Assembly (NCBI RefSeq): GCF_021568905.1
Contig: NZ_JAKGSB010000007.1
Location: forward strand, 1 to 64,000
DNA length: 64,000 nucleotides
Direction of reading: 5' to 3'
Source: Zavarzinia marina
GTDB lineage: Bacteria > Pseudomonadota > Alphaproteobacteria > Zavarziniales > Zavarziniaceae
Positions 29,664 to 55,999 of this stretch are shown one piece after another. Both the position numbers and the translations under genes were made by a program. A model generated the notes under the pieces. The model was given only the letters and a program-made list of their open reading frames with translations. It had not been told where the DNA came from and made no database searches. The stretch's first letter is position 1, and every line of letters begins with the position of its first letter.

Positions 29664-29692
29664 TTGACATGACATGTATATACATGATCGGA
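29664..29692 (+). promoter_or_regulatory. Promoter with GntR/HutC-type operator (TGT-ATAT-ACA)
   Basis: TTGACA (29664-29669) is a consensus -35. The perfect 14-bp palindrome CATGTATATACATG (29673-29686) occupies the spacer and reaches the -10 position (ATCGGA, weak). TGTATATACA is the classic HutC/GntR half-site pair. A repressor bound here would block the promoter for the gene starting at 29733. Confidence 0.75.
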
Positions 29693-35410: not shown

Positions 35411-35552
35411 GGTGACCGTTCGAACCCCGCCTGAAACACCCGCCGCCTTTGGCGGCCACGGCCGATCTTCGCACCGCCACCCGCGCCGGTTCAATCCCGG
35501 CGGCGTCGACGCCCCGATCGGCATGATCGGGAAAATCTTCGGCCAGTGCTTT

Positions 35553-35572
35553 TTATTTGTAAACACATAAAA
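35553..35572 (-). promoter_or_regulatory. HutC-type operator upstream of the dehydrogenase/ABC operon
   Basis: A 20-base near-palindrome TTTATnTGT-N2-ACAnATAAA with core TGT-AAAC-ACA. Its right 16 bases differ in one position from the site in front of the distant substrate-binding-protein gene (51466-51481), which points to shared control of the two halves of the transporter. Confidence 0.65.
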
Positions 35573-35645: not shown

Positions 35646-35680
35646 GAAACCGTCCAGCGTTGTCCCGAAGGATCGAAGCC

Positions 35681-36793
35681 ATGGCCGCATCCACCCCCCT
35701 GATCCGCGACGAGGTGACGTCGCTGCCGACCTACAACGCGGGCCTTCATCCGGAAAAGCTGCGCCGCCAGCTCGGCCTGGAGCGGATCGTGAAGCTGGAC
35801 AGCAACGAGAACCCCCTCGGCCCCTCGCCCGCCGCCATCGAGGCCGTGCGCGCCGCCGCGAACGACCTGTTCCGCTATCCCGACCGCGACGAGACGGTGC
35901 TGCGCGGCCTGATCGCGGCACGGCTCGGCGTCGATGCCGACCGCCTCGCCTTCGGCGACGGTTCGGAGGATCTGATCGGCATCATCTACCGCATGGTCAT
36001 GCGGCCCGGCGAATGCGCCGTCACCACGATGCCGAGCTTCGGCCTGCACAAGATCTGGGCCGACGTCCTGGGCGCCCATGCCCGCCTCCTGCCGTTCGAG
36101 GCGGGATGGCGCTTTCCCGTCGCCGCGATCGAGGCGGCGCTGGCCGAAAAGCCGAGGGTGCTGATTCTCGCCACCCCGTCCAATCCGGTGGGCGCGGTGC
36201 TGACCGGGCAGGACATCGGCCGCATCCTCGCTGCCTGCGGCCCGGAAACGTTGCTGATCCTCGACGAAGCCTATGTCGAATTCGTCTCGCCCGAGGCACG
36301 GGTCGACACGCTCGCCATGCTGGCCGCGCATCATGGTCCCTGGGTCGTGCTGCGGACCTTTTCCAAGGCTTATGGCCTCGCCGGCCTCCGTATCGGCTAT
36401 GGCATCGCCCATGACGCGGATTTCGTCCGCAATCTCTATAAGGTGCGCTCGCCCTTCTCGGTCAATGCCGCGGCGCTGGCAGCGGCCGAGGCGGCCTATG
36501 CCGACACCGCCCATCTGGACCGGGTGACCGCCGAGATCCGCGCCCTGCGCGCCGCCCTGCGCGGCGCCCTGGCGCTGCGCGGTTACGCGGTCGCGCCGAG
36601 CGAGGCCAATTCCCTGTTCTTCGACACCGGGCGCGACGGCGCCGCCGTGGCCGAAGCCCTGCGCCGCCGGGGTGTTCTGGTCAAACCCTGGCTGGAGCCC
36701 GGCTATACCGGCTTCATCCGCGTCTCCATCGGCACCCGCGCGGACAACGAGGCCTTCCTCGCCGCGCTCGACGCCGTCATGGCCGAGGCATGA
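35681..36793 (+). CDS. hisC: Histidinol-phosphate aminotransferase-like PLP enzyme
   Basis: A 370-residue fold-type I aminotransferase of the HisC group: SNENPLG at 41-47, FRYPD, the strand LLILDEAYVEF binding the PLP pyridine nitrogen, the Schiff-base lysine at 229 in RTFSKAYGLAGLRIGY (Arg for phosphate nearby) and a C-terminal FIRVSIGT arginine. ATG 35681 has AAGGA at 35668-35672. No other his biosynthesis gene is near; instead it sits in the hut island with a hut-type operator. HisC paralogs can transaminate aromatic amino acids, so interconversion of imidazole-pyruvate and histidine is a credible role. The symbol reflects the family, not a proven biosynthetic function. Confidence 0.85.
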   Translation: MAASTPLIRDEVTSLPTYNAGLHPEKLRRQLGLERIVKLDSNENPLGPSPAAIEAVRAAANDLFRYPDRDETVLRGLIAARLGVDADRLAFGDGSEDLIGIIYRMVMRPGECAVTTMPSFGLHKIWADVLGAHARLLPFEAGWRFPVAAIEAALAEKPRVLILATPSNPVGAVLTGQDIGRILAACGPETLLILDEAYVEFVSPEARVDTLAMLAAHHGPWVVLRTFSKAYGLAGLRIGYGIAHDADFVRNLYKVRSPFSVNAAALAAAEAAYADTAHLDRVTAEIRALRAALRGALALRGYAVAPSEANSLFFDTGRDGAAVAEALRRRGVLVKPWLEPGYTGFIRVSIGTRADNEAFLAALDAVMAEA

Positions 36794-37918: not shown

Positions 37919-38713
37919 ATGAAACCGTCGCCGCCGAAGGAAAAACGCGAGCCCATGAACTGTGAAATGCCGAAAACGCCCAGCTTCGCCCTCGACGGTC
38001 AGGGCCCCCTGTTCAAGCAGATCGGGCGCGCGGTCACCGAACAGATCCTGAAGGGCCGCTACAAGCAGGGTGAGAAACTGCCGTCGGAAGCCGAACTGAC
38101 GGAGATCTTCAACACCTCGCGCCAGACCGTGAACAAGGCGATCACCGAACTGGCGAAGAGCGGTCTCGTCGAACGCAACCGGCGCGCCGGCACCGTCGTC
38201 TCCTGGCAGTTCCAGGAACGCTTCGTGCTGCCGCTGCGCGACGTCTCGGACGAGATCGAGCGGACCAAGCAGCTCTACGAATACCGCATTCTCGAACGGC
38301 GCGTGATCCGCAACGGCAAGGGCGGCGTCACCTGGCCGGCACTGCCCGCGGGCGCCCGCCTGCTGTTCATCGAGGCGATCCACCTCGCCGACAATCTGCC
38401 GGTCCAGCTCGAGACCCGCTACATCAATTTCGATGCCTTCCCCCATGTGGAACACGAGCAATTCCAGGACGTCCCGCCCAGCAAATGGCTGCTGGACAAC
38501 ATCCCCTGGTCCGAGGTCGAGCATACGGTGCGCGCCACCAACGCCAGCGCCGATCTCGCCAACAAGCTGGGTGTCAAGGTCGGCGCGGCGCTTCTGGTCG
38601 TGGATCGCCAGACATTCCATCGTGGCCTGCCCATCACGGTGGTGCATCTGACCTATCCGGGCGACCGCTTCTCGATCAAGGGCCGCTTCAGCCTCGACCG
38701 CCCGGAAAGCTGA
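37919..38713 (+). CDS. hutC: HutC-type GntR/UTRA transcriptional repressor
   Basis: A 264-residue regulator: winged helix around residues 45-95 (QGEKLPSEAELTEIFNTSRQTVNKAITELAKSGLVERNRRAGTVV) and a UTRA domain with YEYRILERRVI, FIEAIHLADNLPVQLETRYIN and DVPPSKWLLDNIPWSEVEHTVRATNA. The last block (PxxWLL...P.tEaEH.I.A) is the HutC signature; HutC releases DNA when it binds urocanate. It is the best candidate for the TGT-N4-ACA operators in the island. ATG 37919 is used, an in-frame ATG at 37955 is possible. Confidence 0.88.
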   Translation: MKPSPPKEKREPMNCEMPKTPSFALDGQGPLFKQIGRAVTEQILKGRYKQGEKLPSEAELTEIFNTSRQTVNKAITELAKSGLVERNRRAGTVVSWQFQERFVLPLRDVSDEIERTKQLYEYRILERRVIRNGKGGVTWPALPAGARLLFIEAIHLADNLPVQLETRYINFDAFPHVEHEQFQDVPPSKWLLDNIPWSEVEHTVRATNASADLANKLGVKVGAALLVVDRQTFHRGLPITVVHLTYPGDRFSIKGRFSLDRPES

Positions 38714-38727
38714 GCCGAGCCGCCCCC

Positions 38728-39780
38728 TCACTCCGCCGCCTGGCCGGTGGCGCCGGGGGGATCGTTCTCCGCCGCGATCATCCGGTCCAGCAGACGGCGG
38801 AAGCGCAGCGGGCCGCCGTCGATGGCGAGGTCGATCGGGCGGGTCCGCGCCGTATCCAGGCCCTTCTGCACCGCGTTCAGGATCTCCTTGTCCTCGTCGA
38901 AGGCGGCCTTGATGCTTTTCGACATGAAGGCGGAGGTTTCGGCGCATTCGGGCTTCACGTTGCGGAGCTGGAACCAGTAGTAGCGCGTCCGCTTTTCGTT
39001 CACCGGCGTCATCAGGTTGTAGGATTCCATGATGAAGGCATCGTCCGGCACCGGCCTGTTCCGGCCGCCCTTGCCGGCCGGCGTGAACAGCGCCTTGATC
39101 ACGGCGAGGCTGGGGAAGCGCACCTCATAGTGCTGAAGCCGGTCGCAATGGCCCTCGAACGGCACCAGCGGCTGATAGAGGGGAGCGACCTCGACGTCAT
39201 TCATCCAGCGCGAGACGGTGACGCCGTCGCCCGCGATGTCGATGTCGAGCGGCGTCTCCTCGCAGGCCGATTGCGCGAAGGACGACTGATGCACCCATGA
39301 GACATGGGAGGGGTCGAGCAGATTGTCGGTAACCAGCAGATAATTGCAGTCGAGATCCATCACCGGCCCGGTATTGAAACCCCAGGCGGGATCGCCCCAA
39401 TGCTCGATCTCCAGGATCTTGTCCGGATCGGCGAGCGCCGGATCGCCCATCCAGATCCAGACCAGATCATAACGCTCCACGACCGGATAGGACCGGATAT
39501 GGGCCTTGGCCGGGATCAGGGACTGGCCGGGCACGCGCACACAGGTGCCGGCGCAATCGAAGGTCAGGCCGTGATAGCCGCATTCCACCTGGTCGCCCTT
39601 CAGCCGGCCCATGGACAGCGGCAGCTTGCGGTGCGGACAGGCATCCTCCAGCGCCGCGGGTGCCCCGGACTCCGTCCGATAGATCACGATCTTCTCGCCC
39701 ATGATCTCGATCTGGCGCAGGTCCCGCGTGACCGCATGGCCCCAATCCGCGACGTACCAGGTGTGATTGCGCAAATACAT
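38728..39780 (-). CDS. Rieske non-haem iron oxygenase, VanA-like (demethylase type)
   Basis: The 350-residue alpha subunit has a Rieske cluster with Cys48-Pro-His50 (CPHRKLPLSMGRL) and Cys67-x-x-His70 (CGYHGLTFD), and a mononuclear iron site in DNLLDPSHVSWVH (two His plus a distal Asp). The sequence layout, 350 residues and lack of a beta subunit match vanillate O-demethylase (VanA) and caffeine N-demethylase type enzymes. A methylated ring such as methylhistidine would be a fitting substrate in this island, but this is inference. No reductase (VanB) is nearby. It is divergent from a LysR gene. Confidence 0.87.
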   Translation of the reverse strand: MYLRNHTWYVADWGHAVTRDLRQIEIMGEKIVIYRTESGAPAALEDACPHRKLPLSMGRLKGDQVECGYHGLTFDCAGTCVRVPGQSLIPAKAHIRSYPVVERYDLVWIWMGDPALADPDKILEIEHWGDPAWGFNTGPVMDLDCNYLLVTDNLLDPSHVSWVHQSSFAQSACEETPLDIDIAGDGVTVSRWMNDVEVAPLYQPLVPFEGHCDRLQHYEVRFPSLAVIKALFTPAGKGGRNRPVPDDAFIMESYNLMTPVNEKRTRYYWFQLRNVKPECAETSAFMSKSIKAAFDEDKEILNAVQKGLDTARTRPIDLAIDGGPLRFRRLLDRMIAAENDPPGATGQAAE

Positions 39781-40888: not shown

Positions 40889-40904
40889 TTTTGTCTGTAC
40901 AAAA
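40889..40904 (+). promoter_or_regulatory. HutC-type operator upstream of hutH
   Basis: TTTTGT-CTGT-ACAAAA has 6-bp perfect arms around a 4-base centre (core TGT-CTGT-ACA), 62 bases before the hutH start. It is the strongest of the island's HutC-like sites because it adjoins the canonical HutC target gene. Confidence 0.75.
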
Positions 40905-40966: not shown

Positions 40967-42502
40967 ATGTCCGCGATCACCCTGACCCCCGGCTCCGTCA
41001 CCCTGGACGATCTGCGGCGGATCTACCGGGGCGACTGTACCGCCGTCCTCGACCGGGCCATGCGTCCGGCGATCGACGCCGCCGCCGCCATGGTCGCCGC
41101 CGCGGCCGATGGCCCCGCGGTCTATGGCGTCAATACGGGCTTCGGCAAGCTGGCCAGCACGCGCATCGCCCCGGCCGAGACCGCCACGCTCCAGCGCAAC
41201 CTGATCCTGTCCCATTCCTCCGGCGTCGGCGCCCCCCTGCCCGAGCCCGTGGTGCGCCTGATGCTGGCGCTGAAGCTGGTCTCGCTGGGGCGCGGCGCCT
41301 CGGGTGTCCGTTTCGAGCTGATCGAACTGCTCGAGGCCATGCTGGCCAAGGGTGTGACCCCGGTGGTGCCGGGCCAGGGCTCGGTCGGGGCGTCGGGCGA
41401 TCTCGCGCCGCTCGCCCATATGACCGCCGTCATGATCGGCGAGGGCGAAGCCTTCTTCGACGGCACGCGCACGACCGGCGGCGCGGCACTGGCCGCCGCC
41501 GGGCTGTCGCCCGTGGTGCTCGGGCCTAAGGAAGGCCTCGCCATGATCAACGGCACCCAGGTGTCGACGGCCATGGCGCTGGCCGGCCTGTTCGACGCCT
41601 TCGTGCTGGCGCAGTCGGCCCTCGTCACCGGCGCCCTCAGCGTCGATGCCGCCATGGCCTCCATGGCGCCGTTCCGGGCGGAGATCCATGCCCTGCGCGG
41701 CCATCGGGGCCAGATCGATGCCGGTGCCACGCTGCATGCCCTGGTCTCCACCTCGAGCATCTGCGTCTCGCATCTCACCGGCGACACCCGCGTGCAGGAT
41801 CCCTATTGCATGCGCTGCCAGCCCCAGGTGACCGGCGCCTGCATCGACCTGCTGCGCCAGGTCGGCGCCACCCTGGAGACCGAGGCGAATGCGGTCACCG
41901 ACAATCCCCTGGTGCTGACGGAAGCCGGCGTCATCGTTTCCGGCGGCAATTTCCACGCCGAACCCGTGGCCTTCGCCGCCGACCAGACCGCGCTCGCCAT
42001 CGCCGAGATCGGCGCCATCGCCCAGCGCCGCATCGCCACCCTGGTGGATCCCGCCCTGAACTTCGGCCTGCCCGCTTTTCTCAGCCCGCGCCCGGGGGTC
42101 AATTCCGGCTTCATGATCGCGGAAGTGACCACCGCCGCCCTGATGTCCGAGAACAAGCAGCGCGCCGCCCCCTGTTCCGTCGACTCGACGCCGACCAGCG
42201 CCAATCAGGAAGACCATGTCTCGATGGCCGCCCATGGCGCGCGGCGCCTGATGGAGATGAACGCCAATCTGTCCGTCATCCTGGGGGTCGAGGCCCTGAC
42301 CGGGGCGCAGGGCATCGAGTTGCGCGCGCCGTTGCAGACCTCGACACCGCTGGCCGGTGCCGTCGCCGCGGTCCGCGCCGTCGTACCGGCGCTGGAGGAC
42401 GATCGCCTGATGGCGCCCGACATCGAGGCCGCCGCCGCCCTGGTCCGCTCCGGCGCCCTGATCGCCGCGGTGGGCGACATCCCCTTCCCCTCATTGTCCT
42501 GA
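40967..42502 (+). CDS. hutH: Histidine ammonia-lyase
   Basis: A 511-residue enzyme converting histidine to urocanate and ammonia. It has YGVNTGFG at 53-60, the MIO-cofactor Ala142-Ser143-Gly144 inside [34 protein letters not shown], and [17 protein letters not shown], the last three being the histidase-specific substrate segments. GGAG lies before the ATG. A Rieske oxygenase gene follows 22 bases behind its stop in the same orientation, which is unusual; hutU, hutI and hutG are 12 kb away on the other strand. A hut-type operator lies upstream. Confidence 0.96.
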
Positions 42503-42524: not shown

Positions 42525-43643
42525 ATGTCCACGGTCCAGACGATCCTCGAAGCCCTCGAACCCTTCGCGACGGCGCCGCCGGCCGTGCCGCGCGCCATGC
42601 CGGCGCCCTTCTATACAGACGCCGATTTCCTCACGCTCGAGGAAGAGGCGGTGTTCCGCAAGGAATGGGTCTGCCTCGGCCATGCCGGCGAGATCCCGAA
42701 ACCCGGCGACTATTTCACCACCGACCTGGTGGGCGAGCCGCTGCTGGTGGTCCGGGGCCGGGACGGCGCGGTGCGCGTGCTCTCCAACGTCTGCCGCCAC
42801 CGGGGCAATGTCGTCGCCGAGGGCAAGGGCAATGCCAGGCTGTTCTCCTGCGCCTATCACGCCTGGAGTTACAAGGACGACGGCGGCCTCGTCGCCGCGC
42901 CGCTGATGGACAAGGTGCCGGGCTTCGACAAGGCGGACTGCGGCCTGATCCCGTTCCGGACCGAGCTTTGGCAGAATTTCGTCTTCGTCAATCTGGACGG
43001 GAAAGCCGCGCCCCTGGCCCCCCGGCTCGAAGGCCTGCTGCCCCATATCGATCCGTTCCAGCATCAGGACCGGATCAGCGTCTTCGTGACGGACGATGTC
43101 TGGGCCACGAACTGGAAATGCCTGGTCGAGAATTTCATGGAGGGGTACCACCTGACCCCCACCCATCCCCGCACCCTGCACCCGATCACGCCGACCAGCC
43201 TGTGCCGCAAGATCCCCGGCACGGTCGATTATACGGCCTATGAATCCCATTATTCGCCGGACACGCCGGAGCGCACGCCCTATCACCCGCGACTGCCCGA
43301 GACGCATCGCCGCCATTCGACGCTGTTCTGCGTCTTCCCCAGTTTCGTCGTCTCCTATGCCTCCCATTTCACGCTCTATCTCTGCCTGCGGCCGAAAGGC
43401 GTGGGCGAGGTGGCGATCCATTGGGGTGTCGCCGGCTATGTCGACAGCGTCGACGCGCCGGAAGTGGCGCCCTATGTCGCGCTGTGCAACGCCTTCAACG
43501 CCGAGGACAAGGCGAAGCTGGAAACCCTGATCAAGGGCCTGCGCTCGCGCGCCTATGTCCCGGGCTTGCTGGCGCCGGACGATCTGGAAGGCACGATCGT
43601 CGATTTCTACCGCTTCATGGCCGATCGCCTGGCCGATATCTGA
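42525..43643 (+). CDS. Rieske non-haem iron oxygenase, GbcA/choline monooxygenase-like
   Basis: A 372-residue alpha subunit with a Rieske site Cys90-x-His92 (CRHRG) and Cys109-x-x-His112 (CAYHAWSY), bridging Glu202, and the mononuclear iron site His209/His214 in EGYHLTPTHPRTLHP. This pattern (EN.MExYH...H) is typical of oxygenases that act on quaternary ammonium betaines (GbcA, choline monooxygenase, CntA, stachydrine demethylase). Co-transcription with hutH under a hut-type operator suggests a histidine betaine (hercynine) or related compound as substrate; this is inference. No ferredoxin reductase is adjacent. Confidence 0.88.
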   Translation: MSTVQTILEALEPFATAPPAVPRAMPAPFYTDADFLTLEEEAVFRKEWVCLGHAGEIPKPGDYFTTDLVGEPLLVVRGRDGAVRVLSNVCRHRGNVVAEGKGNARLFSCAYHAWSYKDDGGLVAAPLMDKVPGFDKADCGLIPFRTELWQNFVFVNLDGKAAPLAPRLEGLLPHIDPFQHQDRISVFVTDDVWATNWKCLVENFMEGYHLTPTHPRTLHPITPTSLCRKIPGTVDYTAYESHYSPDTPERTPYHPRLPETHRRHSTLFCVFPSFVVSYASHFTLYLCLRPKGVGEVAIHWGVAGYVDSVDAPEVAPYVALCNAFNAEDKAKLETLIKGLRSRAYVPGLLAPDDLEGTIVDFYRFMADRLADI

Positions 43644-43646
43644 GCC

Positions 43647-44552
43647 TCAGGCGCCGGCCAGTTCCGCCCGGATGCAGGCGGCCAGCGCCTCGGCCGGCGC
43701 GGTGCGCGGCTGATCGGCCGGGCCGACGATCACCACGCCCTGACGCATGGCGCTGCCGGCCAGCGGCCGGCGGATCACGCGCCACCCGTCATGGGCCCGC
43801 GCCCCTTCGCGCCGCGTGATCAGCAAGGACACGCCGAGCCCGTTGGCCACCAGCCCGAACACCATCTCGAGGGAGGTCGCGCGATAGGCGATGCGCGGCT
43901 CGATCCCCGCCGCGCGAAACGGCGAGAGCAGGAATTCCCGCGACAGCGGCAGATCCACCAGGACGAAGGGTTCCGCCGCCAGATCCCCGACCGTCACCGC
44001 CTCCTGCGCCGCAAGCCGATGGCCAGCCGGCAGCAGGACATAGGGCCGCAGTTCGCCCACCGTCTCCGCCGCGAGGCCCGGCCCGATCTCGACGTCATAG
44101 GTGAGCGCCAGTTCGATCCGCCCGGCGGCGACGCGCCGGTTCAGGCCGTCGAGATCGCCCTCGTGGATCGAGACCGAGACCCCGGGATGGCGCGCCACCA
44201 TGCGGCGCAGCACCGCCGGCACATATTGCGGGCCAAGGGTCGAGAAATAGCCGAAGGCGACATGGCCCGCGACCTCGCCGCCGTCCGTCGCCACCGGCGC
44301 TTCGAAACCGGCGAGCAGGGCGGAAAGGCGCCGCGCCTCCGCCAGTTTGCGCAGGCCGAATTCGGTCGGCACCAGGCCGCGCGCCGGCAGGCGCTGGAAC
44401 AGATCCCGTCCCAGGATCGCCTCCAGTTCGCGCAGCGCGACCGAGACCGAGGGCTGGGACAGGTTGAGCGCCCGCGCCGCCCCCGCCGTGCTGCCCGCCT
44501 CCGCCACCGCGATCAGGGTCCGCAGGTGACGCACCGTCGTCGATATAGCCAT
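43647..44552 (-). CDS. LysR-family regulator
   Basis: A 301-residue LTTR: HTH HLRTLIAVAEAGSTAGAARALNLSQPSVSVALRELEAILGRDLFQRLPARG, then the effector domain (HVAFGYFSTLGPQYVP...). It is divergent from the CoA-transferase gene, separated by about 100 A/T-rich bases holding a long dyad. It is convergent with the hutH-linked oxygenase with a 3-base gap. It probably regulates the CoA-transferase/acyl-CoA dehydrogenase pair. Confidence 0.88.
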   Translation of the reverse strand: MAISTTVRHLRTLIAVAEAGSTAGAARALNLSQPSVSVALRELEAILGRDLFQRLPARGLVPTEFGLRKLAEARRLSALLAGFEAPVATDGGEVAGHVAFGYFSTLGPQYVPAVLRRMVARHPGVSVSIHEGDLDGLNRRVAAGRIELALTYDVEIGPGLAAETVGELRPYVLLPAGHRLAAQEAVTVGDLAAEPFVLVDLPLSREFLLSPFRAAGIEPRIAYRATSLEMVFGLVANGLGVSLLITRREGARAHDGWRVIRRPLAGSAMRQGVVIVGPADQPRTAPAEALAACIRAELAGA

Positions 44553-44563
44553 TCCCTATATCC

Positions 44564-44651: not shown

Positions 44652-45878
44652 ATGACCCAGTCCGATCCCGCCCCTTCGACCGGCCCCCTCGCCGGCCTCC
44701 GCATCCTCGACTTCACCCGCGTGCTCTCCGGCCCCTATTGCACCGCCCTGCTCGCCGATCTCGGCGCCGAAGTGGTGAAGGTGGAGGCGCCTCAGGGAGA
44801 CGACTATCGTCACGTCGGCCCGTTCCGCGAAGGACAGAGCGCGCTGTTCCAACTGGTGAACCGCAACAAGCGCGGCATCGCCATCGACCTGAAACAGCCG
44901 GCGGGACAAGCCCTGGCGCGGGATCTCGCGGCGCGGGCCGACGTCGTCGTCGAGAATTTCCGGCCCGGCGTCGCCGCCCGCCTCGGTCTCGACGCGGAAC
45001 GCCTGATGGCGGCCGATCCCCGCCTCGTCTATGCCAGCATCTCGGGCTTCGGGCAGTCGGGCCCGAACGCCGCCCTGCCCGCCTTCGATCTGGTCGCCCA
45101 GGCGCTCTCGGGTTTCATGGCCCTGACCGGAGAGGCGGCGGGCAGCCCCATGAAGACCGGCGAGTCGATCGGTGATCTCGCCGCCGGGCTGTTCGCCTCC
45201 TGGTCGATCCTCGCCGCCCTCCTCGAACGGGAGCGGACCGGGCGGGGCCGCCGGCTCGATATCGCCATGGTCGATTCCCTGGTCGCCCTGTTGCCGACCG
45301 CCGTGGCGCAATGGATGTTCGGCGCCGGCGCGCCGACGAGGGTGGGCAACCGCCATCCCCTGTCGACGCCCTTCGGCGCCTATCGGGCGCGCGACGGCCA
45401 TCTGGTCATCTGCGTGCTGAACCAGACCCAGTTCCGCCATCTGGCGGAAACCCTGGATCAGCCGGATCTGGCGGATGATCCCCGCTTCGCCAGCGACGCC
45501 AGGCGCACGGAACACGAGGCGATCCTGCGCGCGCGGATCGAGGCAGGGCTTGCCCGCTGGACGGTGGCGGAAGCGGTCGCCGCCCTGTCCGCCGCCGGTG
45601 TTCCCGCCGCGGCGATCGCCGAGGCCGCCGCCGTGTTCGAGGGCGAGCATGTCCGGGCGCGGGGCCTGATCGGCGAGACCGGGCATCCGCGGCTCGGCCC
45701 GATCCCGGCGATGGAACAGCCGGTCCATTTCGCGGGCCTGCCCCGGGGCGGCCAGCGCCCGGCACCGGCTCTCGGCGCCGACAATGCCGATGTCCTGTCG
45801 CGCTGGCTTTCGCTGGACGACACAGGGATCGCCACCCTCGCCGCCGACGGCACCATCACTCGGGAAGACCGCTCATGA
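44652..45878 (+). CDS. CaiB/BaiF (class III) CoA-transferase
   Basis: A 408-residue class III CoA-transferase. LAGLRILDFTRVLSGPYCTALLADLGAEVVKVE is the family's N-terminal Rossmann-like start; the catalytic Asp lies in a segment such as AFDLVAQALSG; the C-terminal end has ILRARIEAGLARW and GVPAAAIAEAA. Such enzymes move CoA between carboxylic acids without ATP. The stop overlaps the acyl-CoA dehydrogenase start by 4 bases (ATGA), so the two act in sequence: CoA ester formation, then alpha,beta-desaturation. Imidazole-propionate or a betaine are possible substrates. Confidence 0.9.
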   Translation: MTQSDPAPSTGPLAGLRILDFTRVLSGPYCTALLADLGAEVVKVEAPQGDDYRHVGPFREGQSALFQLVNRNKRGIAIDLKQPAGQALARDLAARADVVVENFRPGVAARLGLDAERLMAADPRLVYASISGFGQSGPNAALPAFDLVAQALSGFMALTGEAAGSPMKTGESIGDLAAGLFASWSILAALLERERTGRGRRLDIAMVDSLVALLPTAVAQWMFGAGAPTRVGNRHPLSTPFGAYRARDGHLVICVLNQTQFRHLAETLDQPDLADDPRFASDARRTEHEAILRARIEAGLARWTVAEAVAALSAAGVPAAAIAEAAAVFEGEHVRARGLIGETGHPRLGPIPAMEQPVHFAGLPRGGQRPAPALGADNADVLSRWLSLDDTGIATLAADGTITREDRS

Positions 45879-47008
45879 CCACGCCCCTCGCCGAGACGGA
45901 TACCATCGCCCTCGACCAGATCCGCCGCCTCTGCGCCGAGGCGATCGCGCCTTCGGCCCAAGCCTGCGACGCCGAGGCCCGTTTTCCCGACGCGCAACTG
46001 AAGGCACTGGCGGCGCTGGGCGCCATGGGCATGAATCTGCCGGAAGCCTGGGGCGGGCCCGGGCTTTCGGCGCCTGCGCTGGCGCTGGCGGTCGAGGCCG
46101 TCGCGGGTGCCTGCGGCGGCACCGCCTCCGCCCTGACCGCTCATTTCCTGGCGAGTGACGCGATCCTGATCGGCGGTGACGATCCCGCCCGCGCGCGCTG
46201 GCTGCCCGCCGCCGCGAGGGGCGATATCCTCGGCGCCTTCGCCCTGACCGAACCCCGCGCCGGTTCCAACCCGGCCGACATGAAATGCCGCGCCATCCGG
46301 GACGGCGATGGTTACCGCCTGAGCGGGGTGAAGCACTTCATCTCGAACGGTGGCGTCGCCGATTTCATCGTCGTCTTCGCCGTCACCGACCCCGATGCCG
46401 GCCACCGGGGGATCAGCGCCTTCGTCGTAGAGAAGGGCACGCCGGGCTTCACCGCCGGCCCGCCGGAGCCGACCATGGGCATGAAGGGCGGCCATGTCTT
46501 CGAATTGTCCTTCGACTGCCGCCTGCCGGCCACGGCGCGCCTCGGGCCGGAAGGCAGCGGCTTCAGGACGGCCATGACGGTGCTGGACAACGGCCGGATC
46601 GAGGTCGCGGCCATGTGCCTCGGCATCGCGCAAGCCTCACTCGACGAAGCCGTGGCCTGGGCCAGGCAGCGCCCGATCGGCGGACAGATGCTGTCCGACT
46701 ATCAGGGCATCCAATGGATGATCGCCGACATGGCGACCCAGCTTCGCGCCGCCCGCCTGCTGACCGAGGCGGCGGCGCGGAAGCGCGGCACGGGCGAGCG
46801 CTATTCCCTCGACGCCGCCATGGCCAAGCTGCACGCCTCCGAAGCGGCGGGCCGGGTGGCGGACCTCGCCCTGCAGATCCACGGCGGTTATGGCTATACC
46901 GCCGCCCTGCCCCTGGAACGCCGGGTGCGCGACCTGCGCATCATGCGGATCTACGAGGGATCGTCGGAAGTCCAGCGCGGCATCATCGCGCGACACCTGC
47001 TGGCCTGA
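45875..47008 (+). CDS. Acyl-CoA dehydrogenase
   Basis: A 377-residue flavoprotein with the standard three-domain layout: helical N-terminus, middle beta domain (FALTEPRAGSNPADMKCRAI, the FAD-binding loop; GVKHFISNGG) and C-terminal helical domain ending LRIMRIYEGSSEVQRGIIARHLL. The catalytic base is the Glu of YEGSSE. It oxidises an acyl-CoA to the 2-enoyl-CoA and needs electron-transfer flavoprotein, not encoded here. Its last 26 bases overlap the convergent monooxygenase gene. Confidence 0.92.
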   Translation: MTTPLAETDTIALDQIRRLCAEAIAPSAQACDAEARFPDAQLKALAALGAMGMNLPEAWGGPGLSAPALALAVEAVAGACGGTASALTAHFLASDAILIGGDDPARARWLPAAARGDILGAFALTEPRAGSNPADMKCRAIRDGDGYRLSGVKHFISNGGVADFIVVFAVTDPDAGHRGISAFVVEKGTPGFTAGPPEPTMGMKGGHVFELSFDCRLPATARLGPEGSGFRTAMTVLDNGRIEVAAMCLGIAQASLDEAVAWARQRPIGGQMLSDYQGIQWMIADMATQLRAARLLTEAAARKRGTGERYSLDAAMAKLHASEAAGRVADLALQIHGGYGYTAALPLERRVRDLRIMRIYEGSSEVQRGIIARHLLA

Positions 47009-48350
47009 CGGCGGGCGCGGCGTAGCGGCTGGCGGGCCGGTTCAGGCCGAGGTGATCGCGGAGCGTCTCCCCCTCGTATTCCCGCCGCAGGAGGCCGCGG
47101 CCCTGCAACGCCGGTACCACCTCGGCGACGAAATCGGCGAGGCCGGCGGGCAGCACCGGGAAGGTCAGCATGAAGCCGTCGCAGGCGCCCTGGGTGAACC
47201 ATTCCTCCATCCGGTCGGCGATCTCTGTCGCCGTGCCGCGCGCCGGGGCGTTGCCGCGCTCGTAGCGCTGCCAGAGCTGGCGCGGCGTCAGGCGCTCGTC
47301 CCGGATCAGGCGCACGATCTGTTCGAAATAGACCGTCGACAGATTGGCCGACTTCGGAATGCGGTCCAGCGGGATGGGCTGATCGGGATCGAGGTCGGAG
47401 AGATCGGCCTCCAGATCCATGCCGATCCGCTGATAGCCGACGGTGGGATGGATCATGTCCTGCAGGGCCTGATGCCTGGCCTCCGCCGCCGCCTTGCTCT
47501 CGGCCACGGTCGGGGACAGGCCGGCCAGAATCTTCAACTGGTCGGGGGTGCGGCCGAATTTCGCCATGCGCCCCTTCAGGTCGCGATAGAAGGCCTGGGC
47601 CGCCGCCAGCGTCTCGTGGGAGGTGAAGACCACTTCCGCCGTCTCCGCCGCCAGTTCCTTGCCCGCTTCGGACGAGCCGGCCTGGATGATCACCGGCCGG
47701 CCCTGCGGGCTGCGCGCCAGATTGAGGGCGCCATGCAGCTTGATGAATTCGCCGTCATGATCGAGGGGATGGAACCTGGCGGGATCGAAATAGACGCCGT
47801 TCTCCCTGTCGAAGACGATGGCGTCGTCGTCATAGGTATCCCACAGCGCCTTCACCACATCGACGAATTCCCGCGCCCGGTCGTAGCGCCGGGCATGGGG
47901 CGGCATGGCGTGCAGGCCGAAATTCCGCGCGGCATAATCATTGGACGAGGTGACGACGTTCCACGCCGCCCGGCCCTTGCTGATGTGATCGAGCGAGCCG
48001 AAGAGACGCGCCAGATTATAGGGCTCGTGGAAGCTGGTGGAGGCCGTGCCGCCGAGGCCGATGTGCCTTGTCCGCCCGGCGAGCGCGGTCAGCAGGGTGA
48101 CCGGCTCCAGGATGTTCATATACATCGGATAGCGCGACCAGGCGTCCAGGTTCTCGGTCCGCGCCGCCGGCGTATCGGCCAGGAAGAAGAGATCGAAGCG
48201 CCCGGCCTCGGCAAGCGCCGCCATGTCGGCGAAATAATCGACGTCGTTCGAGGGATTGGTCGTCCGCGCCGACGCCATCCAGGAGGACGGATGCGCCCCC
48301 GTCACATGGGCGAGCAGGGCGAGCGCCATCTGGTTACCGCTTTTCGTCAT
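46983..48350 (-). CDS. LLM-class FMN monooxygenase (NtaA/SnaA/DszA family), copy 1
   Basis: A 455-residue FMNH2-dependent luciferase-like protein. NtaA/DszA markers: GAHPSSWMASARTTNPSNDVDYFADMAALAEAGRFDLFFLADTPA, the RIGLGGTASTSFHEPYN-like loop, HISKGRAAWNVVTSSNDYAARNFG and GRPVIIQAGSSEAGKE. Members cleave C-N or C-S bonds in nitrilotriacetate, EDTA, dibenzothiophene sulfone and similar. It is a close paralog of the next gene (27-base gap), indicating tandem duplication. No flavin reductase (NtaB/DszD) is present in the window. Substrate unknown; position suggests link to the hut island. Confidence 0.9.
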   Translation of the reverse strand: MTKSGNQMALALLAHVTGAHPSSWMASARTTNPSNDVDYFADMAALAEAGRFDLFFLADTPAARTENLDAWSRYPMYMNILEPVTLLTALAGRTRHIGLGGTASTSFHEPYNLARLFGSLDHISKGRAAWNVVTSSNDYAARNFGLHAMPPHARRYDRAREFVDVVKALWDTYDDDAIVFDRENGVYFDPARFHPLDHDGEFIKLHGALNLARSPQGRPVIIQAGSSEAGKELAAETAEVVFTSHETLAAAQAFYRDLKGRMAKFGRTPDQLKILAGLSPTVAESKAAAEARHQALQDMIHPTVGYQRIGMDLEADLSDLDPDQPIPLDRIPKSANLSTVYFEQIVRLIRDERLTPRQLWQRYERGNAPARGTATEIADRMEEWFTQGACDGFMLTFPVLPAGLADFVAEVVPALQGRGLLRREYEGETLRDHLGLNRPASRYAAPAVRPAGVAR

Positions 48351-48376
48351 CGTCAGATACCTTCCGTCGTTCCGGC

Positions 48377-49732
48377 TCAGCCGGCCGCCTTCATGCCGGC
48401 CCGCGCGTAGCGGCTTTCGGGCCGCCTGAACCCCAGGTGTTCACGCAGGGTCGTGCCTTCGTAGTCGAGCTTGTAGAGACCCCGGCGCTGCAATTCCGGC
48501 ACGACGCCGGCGACGAAGGCTTCCAGCCCGTCGGGCAGGGTCGGGAAGATCACCATGTAACCGTCGCAGGCGCCGAGGGAGAACCATTCCTCCATCGCGT
48601 CGGCGACATCCGCCGGGGTGCCGATCACGCGCTTGTTGCCCCGCTCGTAGCGCTGCCAGAGCTGGCGGAGCGTCAGCTTCTGTTCCGTGATCATGGCGAC
48701 GATCTGCTGGAAATAGCGCGTGTGCAGATTGGCCGATTTCGGGATCCGGTCGAGCGGGATGGGCTGGTCCGGATCGAGGTCGGAAACATCCGCCTCGAGA
48801 TCCGAGGCGACGCGGATCTTGCCGACCAGGGGATGGATCATCTCCTGCAGGGTGCGGTGCTTGTCCTCTGCCTCCCAGCGGCTTTCGCCGATCGTCGGCG
48901 TCAGCCCGGCGAGAACCCTGATCTCGTCGGGCGTGCGGCCGAACTTCGCCATGCGGCCCTTCACGTCGTCGTAATAGGCCTTGGCCGCTTCCGGCGTGTC
49001 GTCCGAATTGAAGACCACTTCCGCCGTCTCGGCCGCCAACTCCTTGCCCGCGTCGGACGCGCCGGCCTGGATGATCACCGGCTGCCCCTGGGGGCAGCGG
49101 GCGAGGTTCAGGGCCGAATGCATCTTGAAGAATTCGCCCTGGTGGTCGAGGACGTGGAATTTGGCGGGATCGAAATAGACGCCGCGCGCCTTGTCGAAGA
49201 CGACGGCGTCGTCGTCATAGGTGTCCCACAGCGCCTTGACGATCTCGACGAATTCCTTCGCCCGCGCGTAACGCCGGGCGTGGGGCGCCAGCTTGTCCTC
49301 GCCGAAATTGCGGGCGGCGTAATTGTTGCCCGAGGTGACGACGTTCCAGGCCGCGCGGCCATGGGAAATATGATCGAGCGAGCCGTAGAGACGGGCGAGG
49401 TTATAGGGCTCGTAGAAACTGGTCGAAGCCGTGCCGCCGAGGCCGATGCGGCTGGTATGGCCGGCCAGCGCGGTCAGCAGGGTGATCGGCTCCAGGCAGT
49501 TCATATAGGGGATGTAGCGCGACCAGGCGTCCAGATTGTCGGTCCGCGCCGCCGGCGTGTCGGCGATGAAGAAGAGGTCGAATTTCCCCTTCTCGGCGAG
49601 TTGGGCCATGGCGACGTGATAGTCGATATCGTTGGTGCCGTCGGTGGCGCCCGGGGCCTTCATCCAGCCCGCGGGGTGCAGCCCGTGGGCCTGCGCCAGA
49701 AGTGCCAGCGCCATCTTTCCACGCTCAGCCAT
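48377..49732 (-). CDS. LLM-class FMN monooxygenase (NtaA/SnaA/DszA family), copy 2
   Basis: A 451-residue paralog of the preceding gene, sharing most of the same blocks: HPAGWM, NDIDYHVAMAQLAEKGKFDLFFIADTPAARTDNLDAWSR, GRAAWNVVTSGNNYAARNFG, QPVIIQAGASDAGKELAAETAEVVF and DLDPDQPIPLDRIPKSANL. The two differ mainly in the last 50 residues and in scattered loops, so they may act on related but different substrates. ATG at 49732 is used; an upstream open frame is dissimilar. Its upstream intergenic region holds the terminator of the neighbouring substrate-binding-protein gene. Confidence 0.9.
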   Translation of the reverse strand: MAERGKMALALLAQAHGLHPAGWMKAPGATDGTNDIDYHVAMAQLAEKGKFDLFFIADTPAARTDNLDAWSRYIPYMNCLEPITLLTALAGHTSRIGLGGTASTSFYEPYNLARLYGSLDHISHGRAAWNVVTSGNNYAARNFGEDKLAPHARRYARAKEFVEIVKALWDTYDDDAVVFDKARGVYFDPAKFHVLDHQGEFFKMHSALNLARCPQGQPVIIQAGASDAGKELAAETAEVVFNSDDTPEAAKAYYDDVKGRMAKFGRTPDEIRVLAGLTPTIGESRWEAEDKHRTLQEMIHPLVGKIRVASDLEADVSDLDPDQPIPLDRIPKSANLHTRYFQQIVAMITEQKLTLRQLWQRYERGNKRVIGTPADVADAMEEWFSLGACDGYMVIFPTLPDGLEAFVAGVVPELQRRGLYKLDYEGTTLREHLGFRRPESRYARAGMKAAG

Positions 49733-49774
49733 CGCCGAAATCCCCTTACCGATGAGAAGCAAGACAAAGAAAAA

Positions 49775-49802
49775 GGGAGGGGTGCCGCCAAGCACCCCTC
49801 CC
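49775..49802 (-). terminator. Rho-independent terminator behind the substrate-binding-protein gene
   Basis: The stem GGGAGGGGTGC / GCACCCCTCCC (11 bp, loop CGCCAA) lies directly downstream of the stop at 49831. On the minus strand it is followed by TTTTTCTTTG, a good U-tract. It ends transcription of the substrate-binding-protein gene before the monooxygenase genes. Confidence 0.9.
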
Positions 49803-49830
49803 CCTATGTGGACCGTTCAGGTCATGGCGG

Positions 49831-51384
49831 TCAGGCGAACCACCAGCGTTCCGCGAACCGGCCGCCGTCCATGGAGAAGTCGGAGCCGAGCTCGCCGAAC
49901 ATCACCTTGGTCGAGGCGGCGTCGACGAAATTCGCCACCACCGGGCAGATCTGGCCGCCGGTCTCGGAGATCAGGGTCTGCATGTCGTAGTAGAGCTGGC
50001 GACGCTTCGCGAGGTCGAACTCGGTCCGCGCCGCGACCATCATCTGGTCGAGCTTCGGATCGGACATATGGGTCTCGTTCCAGCCGGCGGCGATGCCGTC
50101 GGTCGAATAGGCGAGCGAGAGCATGGCGTCCTCGTTCGCGCGGCCCGACCAGCGCGCGGCGCAGAAGGGCTTCTTGAACCAGATGTTGTCCCAGTAGCCG
50201 TCTTCCGGCGTCTTCGTCACCTTGATGTCGATGCCGGCCTTCAGCGCCTGCTCGCGGAACAGCACGGCCGCGTCGGTCGCGCCGGTGAACGGCGTCTCGG
50301 AGACGAAGAGCTCGACCGACAGGCTGTCGTGGCCCGCCTTCTTCAGGTGGAACTTGGCCTTGTCCGGATCATAGGCCTTGGGCTTCAGGTCCGGATTGTA
50401 GAACTGGTAGGACGGCGTGATCGGCTGATCGTTGCCGACCGAGGCGAAACCGCCCGCGATCACCTTCACCATCTCCTCGCGGTCGATGGCGTATTTCATC
50501 GCCGTGCGGACGTCGATGTTGGTGAAGGGATCGGCATCCATCAGCATGGGGAAGGTGTAATGCGCCTTGCCCGCGACCGAGAGGAGCTGCACGTCCTTGT
50601 TCCGCTTCAGGAGGCCGGCGGTCTTCAGGTCGACGAAATTATAGGCGTCGATATCGCCCGAAACGAGGGCGGAGGTCCGGGCCGCCGCATCCTTGATGCA
50701 GATCATCTCGACCGCGTCGAAATGGGCGCGGCCTTCCTTCCAGTAGTTGGGATTGCGCTTCACCACCGATTTGACGCCCGGCTCGAGCGACACGAGCATG
50801 TAGCCGCCGGTGCCGATGCCCTTCGAGAAATCGGTCGTGCCGTTCTTCACCATGCCCAGGGTCTCGAGGGTCATGATGTCGGGGAAGCTGACGTTGCCGT
50901 CGCTCAGCACGACGGTCAGTTCGTATTTGCCCGTCGCCTTCACGTCGGAGACCGGCTTCAAGATCGGCGCGGCCGAAGAGGTCGTGCCTTCCTCGCGGTG
51001 GCGGTTCAGGGAATAGACCGCGTCCTCGGCGGTGAATTCGCTGCCGTCATGGAAGGTGACGCCCTGGCGCAGCTTGAAGACCCAGGTCTTCGCATCGGCG
51101 GAGCCTTCCCAGCTTTCGGCCAGTTCCGGCACCAGCACGCCGCCGGGGCCGAATTCGATCAGGTTGTTGTAGAGCTGGCGGAAGATGAAGAGCTGGAAAT
51201 AGGTGGAGTAGAGCGCGGGGTCGAGACTGTCGACGGCGGCGAAATCGCCGATCCCCACCCGCAGCGTGCCGCCCTTCTTCGGCGTCGCCGCCAGGAGCCT
51301 GCGCGGCATCAGACCGATCGCACCGGCGGCCGCAGCCGAGCCGATGAGAAAATCGCGACGCCCTATGCCATTGGAAAACGCCAT
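49831..51384 (-). CDS. ABC transporter periplasmic substrate-binding protein (SBP_bac_5), Tat-exported
   Basis: A 517-residue family 5 binding protein. The N-terminus has a twin-arginine motif GRRDFLIG (residues 8-15) and a long hydrophobic core, and the mature start is TPKKGGTLRVGIGDF. Family marks: PELAESWEGSADAKTWVFKLRQGVTFHDGSEFTAEDAVYS, SLEPGVKSVVKRNPNYWKEG, and YSTDGI near the end. It is the only family 5 binding protein here and must serve the peptide-type importer encoded 16 kb away. It is monocistronic with its own terminator and operator; a near-identical operator precedes the importer operon. Confidence 0.9.
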   Translation of the reverse strand: MAFSNGIGRRDFLIGSAAAAGAIGLMPRRLLAATPKKGGTLRVGIGDFAAVDSLDPALYSTYFQLFIFRQLYNNLIEFGPGGVLVPELAESWEGSADAKTWVFKLRQGVTFHDGSEFTAEDAVYSLNRHREEGTTSSAAPILKPVSDVKATGKYELTVVLSDGNVSFPDIMTLETLGMVKNGTTDFSKGIGTGGYMLVSLEPGVKSVVKRNPNYWKEGRAHFDAVEMICIKDAAARTSALVSGDIDAYNFVDLKTAGLLKRNKDVQLLSVAGKAHYTFPMLMDADPFTNIDVRTAMKYAIDREEMVKVIAGGFASVGNDQPITPSYQFYNPDLKPKAYDPDKAKFHLKKAGHDSLSVELFVSETPFTGATDAAVLFREQALKAGIDIKVTKTPEDGYWDNIWFKKPFCAARWSGRANEDAMLSLAYSTDGIAAGWNETHMSDPKLDQMMVAARTEFDLAKRRQLYYDMQTLISETGGQICPVVANFVDAASTKVMFGELGSDFSMDGGRFAERWWFA

Positions 51385-51465
51385 CTCGGCCTCCTCGTTC
51401 TTCCATCCCCTGCCCGCCGCGCGGGCCTCCATCCGGTCTTCGAAAATCGTCCCACATCCCTGTGA

Positions 51466-51481
51466 TTTGTAAAGACATAAA
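51466..51481 (-). promoter_or_regulatory. HutC-type operator upstream of the binding-protein gene
   Basis: TTTGT-AAAG-ACATAAA (core TGT-AAAG-ACA) lies about 80 bases before the binding-protein ATG. It matches 15 of 16 bases with 35557-35572 upstream of the dehydrogenase/permease operon. Confidence 0.65.
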
Positions 51482-51573
51482 GGCGAGGAATTGAATATTT
51501 CCTTGGCAGATGGCGATCGCCGCCGGCGCCGTGCCGCTTTTTTGGTCAGGTGATGCCCGGAAAAAGGCAAGCA

Positions 51574-52236: not shown

Positions 52237-53910
52237 TCAGTTGCCCAGGATGCCGGGCAGGCGCAGGCCCTTGTCGCGGGCGCAGTCGAGGGCGATGTCG
52301 TAGCCGGCGTCGGCATGGCGCATGACGCCGGTCGCCGGATCGTTCCACAGCACGCGGCCGATGCGCGCGTCCGCTTCGGCCGTGCCGTCGCAGCAGACGA
52401 CCATGCCCGAATGCTGGCTGAAGCCCATGCCGACGCCGCCGCCATGATGCAGCGAGACCCAGGTGGCGCCGGAGGCGCAATTCAGCAGGGCATTGAGCAG
52501 CGGCCAGTCGGAGACGGCGTCGGACCCGTCCTTCATCGCTTCCGTCTCGCGGTTGGGCGAGGCGACGGACCCCGAGTCGAGATGATCGCGGCCGATCACG
52601 ATCGGCGCCTTCAATTCGCCGTTCCGCACCATCTCGTTGAAGGCGAGGCCGAGGCGATGACGGTCGCCGAGACCAACCCAGCAGATCCGCGCCGGCAGGC
52701 CCTGGAAGGCGATGCGTTCCCGCGCCATGTCCAGCCAATTGTGGAGATGGGCATTGTCCGGCAGCAGTTCCTTCACCTTGGCGTCGGTCCTGTAGATGTC
52801 CTCCGGATCGCCCGAGAGGGCGGCCCAGCGGAACGGGCCGATGCCCCGGCAGAATTGCGGGCGGATATAGGCCGGCACGAAGCCGGGGAAATCGAAGGCA
52901 TCCGTCAGCCCCTCGTCGAAGGCGCGCTGGCGGATGTTGTTGCCGTAGTCCAGCGTCGGGATGCCCATGCGCCAGAAATCCAGCATGGCCTCGACATGGA
53001 CCTTCATCGACGCCTTGGCCGCCGCCTCGACCCGCTTCGGATCGCTCTCACGCGCGGCCTTCCATTCGGCCAGGGTCCAGCCCGCCGGCAGGTAGCCGTT
53101 GATCGGATCATGCGCGGAAGTCTGGTCGGTGACGATGTCGGGGCGAATGCCGCGCCTCACCATTTCGGGGAAGACGTCGGCGGCATTGCCGAGCAGACCG
53201 ACGGAGATCGCCTTGCCCTCGGCATGGGCCTTCTCGACGATGGCCACGGCCTCGTCGATGGTCTCGGCCTTCACGTCGACGTAACGGGTGCGCAGGCGGA
53301 AATCGATATGGTCGGGATCGCATTCGACCGCGATGCAGGAGGCGCCGGCCATGGTCGCCGCCAGGGGCTGCGCCCCGCCCATGCCGCCGAGGCCGCCGGT
53401 CAAGATCCATTTGCCCTTCAGATTGCCGTCGAAATGCTGGCGCCCCGCCTCGACGAAGGTTTCATAGGTGCCCTGGACGATGCCCTGGGTGCCGATATAG
53501 ATCCACGAGCCGGCCGTCATCTGGCCGTACATCATCAGGCCCTTGCGGTCGAGTTCGTTGAAATGGTCCCAGGTCGCCCAGTTCGGCACCAGGTTGGAAT
53601 TGGCGATCAGCACCCGGGGCGCGTCGGCGTGGGTCTTGAACACGCCGACCGGCTTGCCGGACTGAACCAGCAGGGTCTCGTCGTTCTCCAGCGTCTTCAG
53701 GCTGGCGACGATGCGGTCGAAATCGTCCCAGGTGCGCGCCGCGCGGCCGATGCCGCCATAGACCACCAGTTCGTTCGGATTCTCCGCCACTTCGGCGTCG
53801 AGATTGTTCATGAGCATGCGCAGCGGCGCTTCGGTCAGCCAACTCTTGGCGTTCAGTTCGGTGCCGCGCGGGGCCCGCACTTCGCGGGTGTTGTGGCGGG
53901 GGTTGCTCAT
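52237..53910 (-). CDS. hutU: Urocanate hydratase
   Basis: A 557-residue NAD-dependent enzyme hydrating urocanate to 4-imidazolone-5-propionate. Landmarks: [51 protein letters not shown] (NAD), the active-site block [22 protein letters not shown] containing the catalytic Cys, and the C-terminal [34 protein letters not shown] upstream fixes the ATG at 53910. It lies 17 bases behind hutG. Confidence 0.97.
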
Positions 53911-53927: not shown

Positions 53928-54731
53928 TCAGGCGGCGCGGCGGGCGATCGCCTCGATCGCCTGAAGCATGTCGCGCAGATAGGGTCGAAGTTGGCCGGCC
54001 ACGGCCGGATCAAAGGACCAGGGGGCGGCTTCCGCGCTCAGATAGGCGCGCTGGCCGAGTTCCATCTGGATCGCGTGCACGCCCGTCTCCGGCCGGCCGT
54101 AATGCCGCGTGGTCCAGCCGCCCTTGAAGCGGCCGTTGACCACGTGATCGAAGCCATCGCGCCCGGCCGCCTTCGCGACCTCGGCGACCGCCGTCAGAAT
54201 CTCGTCCGAACAGGTGGCGCCCGCGTTGTTGCCGATGTTGAAGACCGGCAGACGCCCCTCGAACAGAAACGGGATGTCGGAGCGGATCGAATGGCAGTCG
54301 TAGAGCACCACCATGGGATGGATTGTCCGCAGGCGCTCGACCTCCGCCGCCAGCGCCGCGTGATAGGGCGCGTGGAAGGCAAGGCGCCGGCGCTCCACTT
54401 CCGCGGCATCGGGCGCCTGGCCCGGTTTCCAGATCGGCCGGCCGTCGAAATCCGTCTCGGGCACGAGACCCGTCGTGTTCTGCCCGGGATAGAGCGATCG
54501 GCCGGAAGGATCGCGATTGGCGTCGATCACATAGCGATGGAAATTGGCGTGCACGACCGTGGCGCCGGGAAGGAGCCCGTCATAGAGCCGGTCGATATGC
54601 CAGTCCGTATCCGCCAAGGCCCGCCCGGTCGCATTGAGGGCGGCGGCGATATCGTTGGGCACGAAGGTGCCGCCATGGGGCTGGCCCAGGATGACGGGGC
54701 CGTCGCCCCGGATCACGCCGACCGGCGTCAT
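53928..54731 (-). CDS. hutG: N-formylglutamate deformylase
   Basis: A 267-residue FGase. Motifs: [33 protein letters not shown] (metal and substrate site), [24 protein letters not shown] and [15 protein letters not shown]. It releases formate from N-formyl-L-glutamate, the last step of the HutF route. Its start overlaps the hutI stop by 4 bases (ATGA), showing translational coupling. This is the deformylase type of HutG, not the formiminoglutamase type, which matches the presence of hutF. Confidence 0.94.
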
Positions 54732-55942
54732 GCCTCGACCCCTTCGAGGAAACGCGCGTGCAGGGGATTGAAACCGATCCGATAGGAAAGCTCGGCCGGA
54801 TCCGCCACGTCGAAGACGGCGAGATCCGCGGCCTTGCCGACTTCGATGGAACCCGTCTCGTCGCCAAGGCCGAGCGCCCTGGCCGCATTGACGGTGACCC
54901 CCGCCAGCGCCTCCGCCGGGGTCAGGCGGAACAGGGTGCAGCCCATGTTCATGGTCAGCAGCAGGGAGGTCAGGGGGGAAGTGCCCGGGTTGCAGTCGGT
55001 CGAAAGCGCGATCGGCACCCCGGCCCCCTTCAGCCGCCCGATCGGCGGCATCTGGGTTTCGCGCAGGCAGTAGAAGGCACCGGGCAGCAGGGTGGCGACG
55101 GTGCCCGCCCGCGCCATGGCGGCCACGCCTGCCTCGTCCAGATATTCGATGTGATCCGCCGAAAGACCGTCGAACTGCGCGGCCAGCGCCGCCCCGCCGA
55201 GGTTGGAGAGCTGTTCGGCATGGATCTTCACGGGCAGGCCCAGGACCGTCGCCGCCTCGAACATGCGCCGGGTCTGCGCCACCGAGAAGGCGATCCCCTC
55301 GCAGAAGGCATCGACCGCGTCGACCAGTCCCTGGGCATGGGCGGCGGGCAGCACCTCATGGCACAGGAAATCGATGAAATCGTCCGGTCGGCCGGCGAAT
55401 TCGGGCGGCAGGGCATGGGCCCCGAGAAAGGTGGTGCGGATCCGCACCTTGCGGTGCCGGGCCAGATCGCGTGCCACCCGCAGCATCTTCAATTCATTCT
55501 CGAGGTCGAGGCCATAGCCCGATTTCACCTCGACCGTCCCCGTCCCTTCCGCCAGCAGGGCGTCGAGGCGGCCGAGCGCGCCGGCCAGAAGCTGGTCCGC
55601 CGCGGCGGCACGGGTGGCCCGCACGGTCGACATGATGCCGCCGCCGGCCGCCGCGATCTCGGCATAGCTGGCGCCTTCGAGCCGCATCTCGAATTCCCGC
55701 GCCCGGCTGCCGCCATGGACGAGATGGGTGTGGCAGTCGATCAGTGCCGGCGTCACCAGCCGGCCGCCCAGATCGATATGGGGCCAGGCCGCGAATTGCC
55801 GCGGCAGATCCCCTCGCCCGCCGACGAATTGGATGCGACCATCGGCGACGACGATGGCGCCATCGTCCAGAAGGCCATAGCCGGAAGGTTCGGCCATGGT
55901 CGCGATGCGCGCTTTTATCAAGACAAATGATGCGGCGGACAT
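54728..55942 (-). CDS. hutI: Imidazolonepropionase
   Basis: A 404-residue metal amidohydrolase opening 4-imidazolone-5-propionate to N-formimino-glutamate. It has [70 protein letters not shown] and [11 protein letters not shown], all HutI-specific blocks. ATG 55942 has GAGGG upstream; an in-frame TTG at 55957 is unlikely. First gene of hutI-hutG-hutU-hutD; its promoter faces hutF with a palindrome between. Confidence 0.96.
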
Positions 55943-55999
55943 ACTCGGTTCCCTCAATCCCTGCGGAGAAACCGCTTGCCTTTCATCGTAGAGGCAACA

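Follow-up and report, generated by a model that had tools for sequence, protein, structure and literature searches.

What does a class III CoA-transferase, translationally coupled to an acyl-CoA dehydrogenase (ACAD), do among genes for histidine utilization (hut)? The question is raised by a stretch of 64,000 nucleotides (hereafter the window) on contig C15 of Zavarzinia marina, an alphaproteobacterium of soil or water with a genome of 3.95 Mb. The original prediction was that the two enzymes convert imidazole propionate to urocanyl-CoA, which on exchange of its CoA would give urocanate for the urocanate hydratase HutU. The pair recurs beside and inside the hut operons of unrelated bacteria, and therefore probably converts imidazole propionate, a product of gut microbes that has been tied to diabetes and heart disease, into an intermediate of histidine breakdown. 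We hold a link between the pair and the hut pathway to be very probable; that the pair is a side-entry module of this pathway for imidazole-4-propionate (dihydrourocanate) is, judging from sequence comparisons, the likely form of that link.

Table 1. Features of the Zavarzinia marina window, with positions, strand and supporting evidence.
Feature	Position	Strand	Evidence
HutC-type repressor, one of two in the window	28904-29641	-	
Perfect palindrome CATGTATATACATG, upstream of the preceding repressor	29673-29686		
PhyH-type dioxygenase, divergent from the same repressor	29733-30542		
GlcD-like FAD 2-hydroxyacid oxidase, recurrent companion of the pair	34034-35566	-	
HisC-like aminotransferase, recurrent companion of the pair	35660-36793	+	
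HutC-type repressor, the other of the two	37919-38713	+	TIGR02018 238.4 bits, cut-off 220
VanA-type Rieske oxygenase, recurrent companion of the pair	38728-39780	-	PF00355 and PF19112
hutH, histidine ammonia-lyase	40967-42502	+	PRK09367 687.8 and TIGR01225 658.2 bits, both above cut-off
Second Rieske oxygenase	42525-43643		
LysR-type regulator, divergent from the pair	43647-44552	-	PF00126 and PF03466
Predicted LysR operator, a perfect T-N11-A dyad (TATAG-N7-CTATA) that overlaps the start of the LysR gene	44544-44560	.	sequence
Class III (CaiB/Frc-type) CoA-transferase, proposed urocanyl-CoA:imidazole-propionate CoA-transferase	44652-45878	+	408 aa; PF02515
ACAD, proposed imidazole-propionyl-CoA dehydrogenase	45875-47008	+	377 aa; PF02771/PF02770/PF00441
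Two NtaA/DmoA-type FMN (LLM) monooxygenases and a peptide-type solute-binding protein, between the pair and hutU	46983-51570	-	
hutU, urocanate hydratase, would take the product of the pair	52237-53910	-	TIGR01228 976 bits, cut-off 375
hutG, N-formylglutamate deformylase	53928-54731	-	TIGR02017 362 bits, cut-off 279
hutI, imidazolonepropionase	54728-55957	-	TIGR01224 484.6 bits, cut-off 298
hutF, formimidoylglutamate deiminase	56029-57393	+	TIGR02022 587 bits, cut-off 413

The family assignments and both open reading frame boundaries of the original prediction hold. The CoA-transferase belongs to class III on the strength of a full-length match to CoA_transf_3 (Pfam PF02515; 427.8 bits against a cut-off of 23.3) and of its catalytic Asp175, found in 78/78 aligned relatives. 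The second protein is an ACAD by its matches to all three acyl-CoA dehydrogenase domains of Pfam, its catalytic Glu361, present in 80/80 relatives covered by the alignment, and its AlphaFold2 model (pLDDT 90.9), which has the standard short-chain ACAD fold with a Z of about 53 to SCAD. Coupling of the two genes is likewise borne out: the CoA-transferase gene ends in TCATGA, and the ACAD start codon at 45875 shares the four nucleotides ATGA with this TGA stop. The pair was said to lie beside hutH, which is indeed near, but a Rieske oxygenase gene and the LysR gene intervene. Opp transporter genes also belong to this island, and everything from these to the SBP5 gene is conserved as a block in another Zavarzinia genome.

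Relatives were found in bacterial genomes by ACAD sequence alone, and the best 80 loci were taken. A hut gene (hutU, H, I, F or G) lies at most 10 kb from the pair in 33 of them, in counts where loci from one genus are not independent rows. Hut linkage is seen in alpha-, beta- and gammaproteobacteria, including Pseudomonas, Chelatococcus and other Hyphomicrobiales, Rhodobacterales, Alcaligenaceae and other Betaproteobacteria; mapped on the ACAD tree, the trait changes state 12 times. None of 20 control loci, carrying paralogous class III CoA-transferases in six genomes that own hutU, is hut-linked; the association thus recurs in unrelated lineages and above the control level, as is expected of an accessory module. 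Against this, the remaining 47 loci, some of them short contigs, have no hut gene within 10 kb, and the nearest relatives outside Zavarzinia (Acidocella, Novosphingobium) are among these. Hosts nevertheless possess hutU: it is encoded elsewhere in 27/27 checked genomes whose pair lacks adjacent hut genes, against a baseline of 69/241 genomes of the class that takes in small genomes, and in 4/4 genomes of the class that carry the ACAD. Z. marina itself has a sole copy of hutU; also against the module, this copy lies 5 kb from the pair, and the pair here has a LysR operator of its own.

At 15 of the linked loci the nearest hut gene lies less than 600 bp away on the same strand, and mostly this is hutU, 21-173 bp upstream of the transferase gene; the order HutU-CoA-transferase-ACAD is found in Pseudomonas and several Hyphomicrobiales, e.g. 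Chelatococcus. The clearest cases are plasmid records of Paracoccus aminophilus (pAMI6), P. alcaliphilus and Thioclava, retrieved by a search separate from that for the best 80 loci: here the pair lies inside a hut operon, hutI-hutH-hutG-CoA-transferase-ACAD-hutU, and in the two Paracoccus species genes of this operon overlap. As a CoA exchange loop predicts, neither ligase nor thioesterase could be recognised among the genes annotated around the pair in these plasmid operons. Several Pseudomonas genomes have two full copies of hutU, one of them in the operon of the pair, while two others have no full hutU match and their contigs end within hutU beside the pair. Breaks inside the adjoining hutU occur at three Pseudomonas loci and are consistent with two nearly identical copies per genome.

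Other features of these neighbourhoods vary by lineage. Seven loci illustrate the diversity of adjoining transporters: TRAP DctP/DctM in Rhodobacterales and Rhodobiaceae, a cytosine/purine-type permease in Pseudomonas and Novosphingobium, an amino acid ABC transporter in Castellaniella and Paracoccus. A variant layout at five loci (L040, L043, L046, L051 and L075) combines a divergent hutU (59-63% identical) and a CoA-transferase on the opposite strand with a facing LysR-ACAD unit; in Bosea, an MmgE/PrpD gene accompanies the CoA-transferase, and arginase-family and Opp genes accompany LysR-ACAD. This layout possibly serves a related substrate. A HutH-like ammonia-lyase, 39% identical to the HutH of the window, is encoded directly after the ACAD gene at L036 (around 2818) and L043 (around 11299).

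The pathway originally proposed from gene proximity is well supported by the HutU-CoA-transferase-ACAD order, the plasmid operons, the adjoining HutC repressors described below and the hut-free paralogues; what we infer is its substrate, the direction in which it runs, the exchange of CoA and the inducer of LysR. The CoA-transferase would convert imidazole propionate to imidazole-propionyl-CoA, from which the ACAD would remove two hydrogens across C-alpha and C-beta to yield urocanyl-CoA, passing its electrons to ETF and on to ETF:quinone oxidoreductase. The transferase would then use urocanyl-CoA as the CoA donor for a further molecule of imidazole propionate, freeing urocanate and closing the loop without ATP, and urocanate would proceed through HutU, HutI, HutF and HutG to glutamate. 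If the ACAD product enters at HutU, the simplest substrate of this enzyme is imidazole-propionyl-CoA, and imidazole propionate is the obvious compound for an ACAD step that yields urocanate; forms of it that carry a methyl or thiol group would also suit this genomic context.

Could the two enzymes serve a better known substrate? Every curated named-substrate model (NCBIfam) for either protein scores well under its cut-off. A carnitine or betaine route of the CaiB/CaiA kind, working with the GbcA-like Rieske enzyme, had been offered as the alternative in the original prediction. The proteins do belong to the same broad superfamilies and a Rieske gene lies 1 kb upstream, but the scores fall far short (carnitine CoA-transferase NF002914, 142 against 413 bits; CaiA NF002885, 148.6 against 540; GbcA, 140.9 against 670), and betaine genes do not recur among the neighbours examined, choline transport genes appearing at one Leisingera plasmid locus; we consider this route extremely improbable. 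The same wide margins weigh against an ordinary module for short-chain or dicarboxylic acids (glutarate, 3-sulfinopropionate, short acyl-CoA) that lies near hut by chance, even though the LysR-CoA-transferase-ACAD layout is typical of such modules, from which the nearest models also come: succinate-glutarate CoA-transferase (NF052585) gives 323 bits for a cut-off of 750, glutaryl-CoA dehydrogenase (NF045552) 221 for 470, 3-sulfinopropionyl-CoA desulfinase Acd (NF042439) 256 for 600, and acryloyl-CoA reductase AcrC (NF042972), the best curated model for the ACAD, 372.7 for 640. We accordingly rejected the betaine/carnitine, glutarate, 3-sulfinopropionate and acryloyl-CoA assignments. Contig C9 moreover carries a separate LysR-ACAD-CoA-transferase set whose transferase reaches 568 bits as succinate-glutarate CoA-transferase; as the likely glutarate system of this genome, it is a better candidate than the pair, which we dismissed in that role. 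Nor would chance be expected to place the pair in hut operons repeatedly; a module of this ordinary kind is quite unlikely.

Two further readings keep the link to urocanate. The pair might run in reverse, reducing urocanyl-CoA to imidazole-propionyl-CoA as an electron sink: ACADs are reversible, and the best curated model is a reductase, AcrC, if below its cut-off. This is very unlikely: most hosts are aerobic proteobacteria that have hutU in one operon with the pair, uptake transporters adjoin the pair, and Z. marina encodes an ETF:quinone oxidoreductase. Alternatively, the pair may feed hut from a modified imidazole propionate, N-methylated or 2-thiolated (from ergothioneine), with the island's Rieske oxygenases as partners. 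Such a substrate is favoured by the VanA-type and GbcA-like Rieske, HisC-like and GlcD-like genes that repeatedly accompany the pair, in Gemmobacter and Mesorhizobium among others; against it, the units of Pseudomonas, Paracoccus and Chelatococcus consist of hut genes and transport without Rieske genes, and the HutU copies match ordinary urocanate hydratase, while their thiourocanate scores fall far short of the cut-offs. We regard a modified substrate as unlikely, and retain imidazole propionate itself as the preferred one.

The ACAD has acidic residues of its own that may bear on this preference. Residue 243, a Glu in the window's enzyme, is acidic (Glu or Asp) in 81/81 orthologues versus 0/9 paralogues, and is Gly in 4/5 of the best solved homologues among the matches listed; Asp95 is present in 81/81 orthologues and absent in the paralogues. 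They lie on the two helices that should form the wall of the acyl pocket, and may hold the imidazole ring there. The relatives were collected with two peptide patterns, so that the pattern-internal residues N132 and Q277-W281 look falsely invariant. N132 and YQG-QWM were dropped as clade-defining residues since they sit in the search patterns and the plasmid members inside hut operons carry D132.

Control of the pair differs between lineages. A LysR gene adjoins it in most related loci, whereas in Pseudomonas putida and Castellaniella the adjoining regulator is a true HutC (290 and 262 bits for TIGR02018, cut-off 220). The original prediction had described the LysR operator as unlike the hut boxes, and we agree: TATAG-N7-CTATA has a single match within the window (0.01 expected) and is not a HutC box. 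The dyad is found at the same position in Zavarzinia, Acidocella and two further near-relative genomes. Since it is no HutC box, the pair in the Zavarzinia lineage seems to have its own inducer, as had been proposed. A weak HutC-like box occurs at 40890, upstream of hutH.

A cassette of the VanA-type Rieske, second Rieske, HisC-like and GlcD-like genes travels with the pair, whole or in part, at six loci, sometimes without local hut genes, and homologues of the VanA-type Rieske oxygenase (59-62%) adjoin the pair at four. This cassette may serve imidazole lactate or N-methylhistidine: the GlcD-like oxidase and the HisC-like aminotransferase would turn imidazole lactate into histidine by way of imidazole pyruvate, and N-methyl groups could be stripped by a Rieske enzyme. 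Such chemistry would agree with the three substrates named in the title of Coote and Hassall 1973 (Biochem J 132:409; cited in PMC3953581 and PMC9157411), according to which Pseudomonas testosteroni degrades imidazolylpropionate, imidazolyl-lactate and histidine. We give even chances to the broader proposal that pair and island form an undescribed, horizontally spread salvage of imidazole propionate, imidazole lactate and N-methylated histidines into hut; the pair would then be the first genes to which the catabolism of imidazole propionate in bacteria is assigned.

Gut microbes produce imidazole propionate, which has been associated with insulin resistance, heart failure and atherosclerosis (PMC11390552, PMC10854170, PMC12554895). 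Papers on the compound deal with how it is formed and with the diseases to which it is linked (e.g. PMC13320830, PMC11390552). The literature we searched on this compound names no catabolic gene and includes no text with urocanyl-CoA. As a two-gene module whose Pseudomonas and Paracoccus hosts can be cultured, the pair opens imidazole-propionate breakdown to direct testing. If our reading is correct, it would supply genes for the degradation described in 1973, and its enzymes could be used to assay or remove imidazole propionate.

Several known systems resemble the pair. CaiB/CaiA, BbsEF/BbsG (benzylsuccinate) and GcdG/GcdH (glutarate) also activate by CoA exchange and then dehydrogenate between C-alpha and C-beta, with the same folds and catalytic Asp and Glu; the pair differs from systems of the CaiB/CaiA type in curated scores far below the cut-offs, in its partners (hutU, hutH, hutG, HutC) and in the conserved acidic residues of its ACAD. 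With the classical hut pathway under HutC control it shares the steps HutU-HutI-HutF-HutG, downstream of its proposed product, and a place inside the Paracoccus and Thioclava hut operons, to which it would add a CoA-thioester entry for the saturated side chain, absent from classical accounts of hut, and, in Zavarzinia, a LysR switch of its own. The urocanate reductase UrdA of gut bacteria produces imidazole propionate from urocanate and acts on the free acid. The pair would interconvert the same two compounds, in the opposite direction, as CoA thioesters and with enzymes of different protein families. Finally, the 1973 work on P. testosteroni, to judge by its title, sets a proteobacterial precedent for imidazolylpropionate degradation; its citation names no genes, and the loci of the pair are candidates for them.
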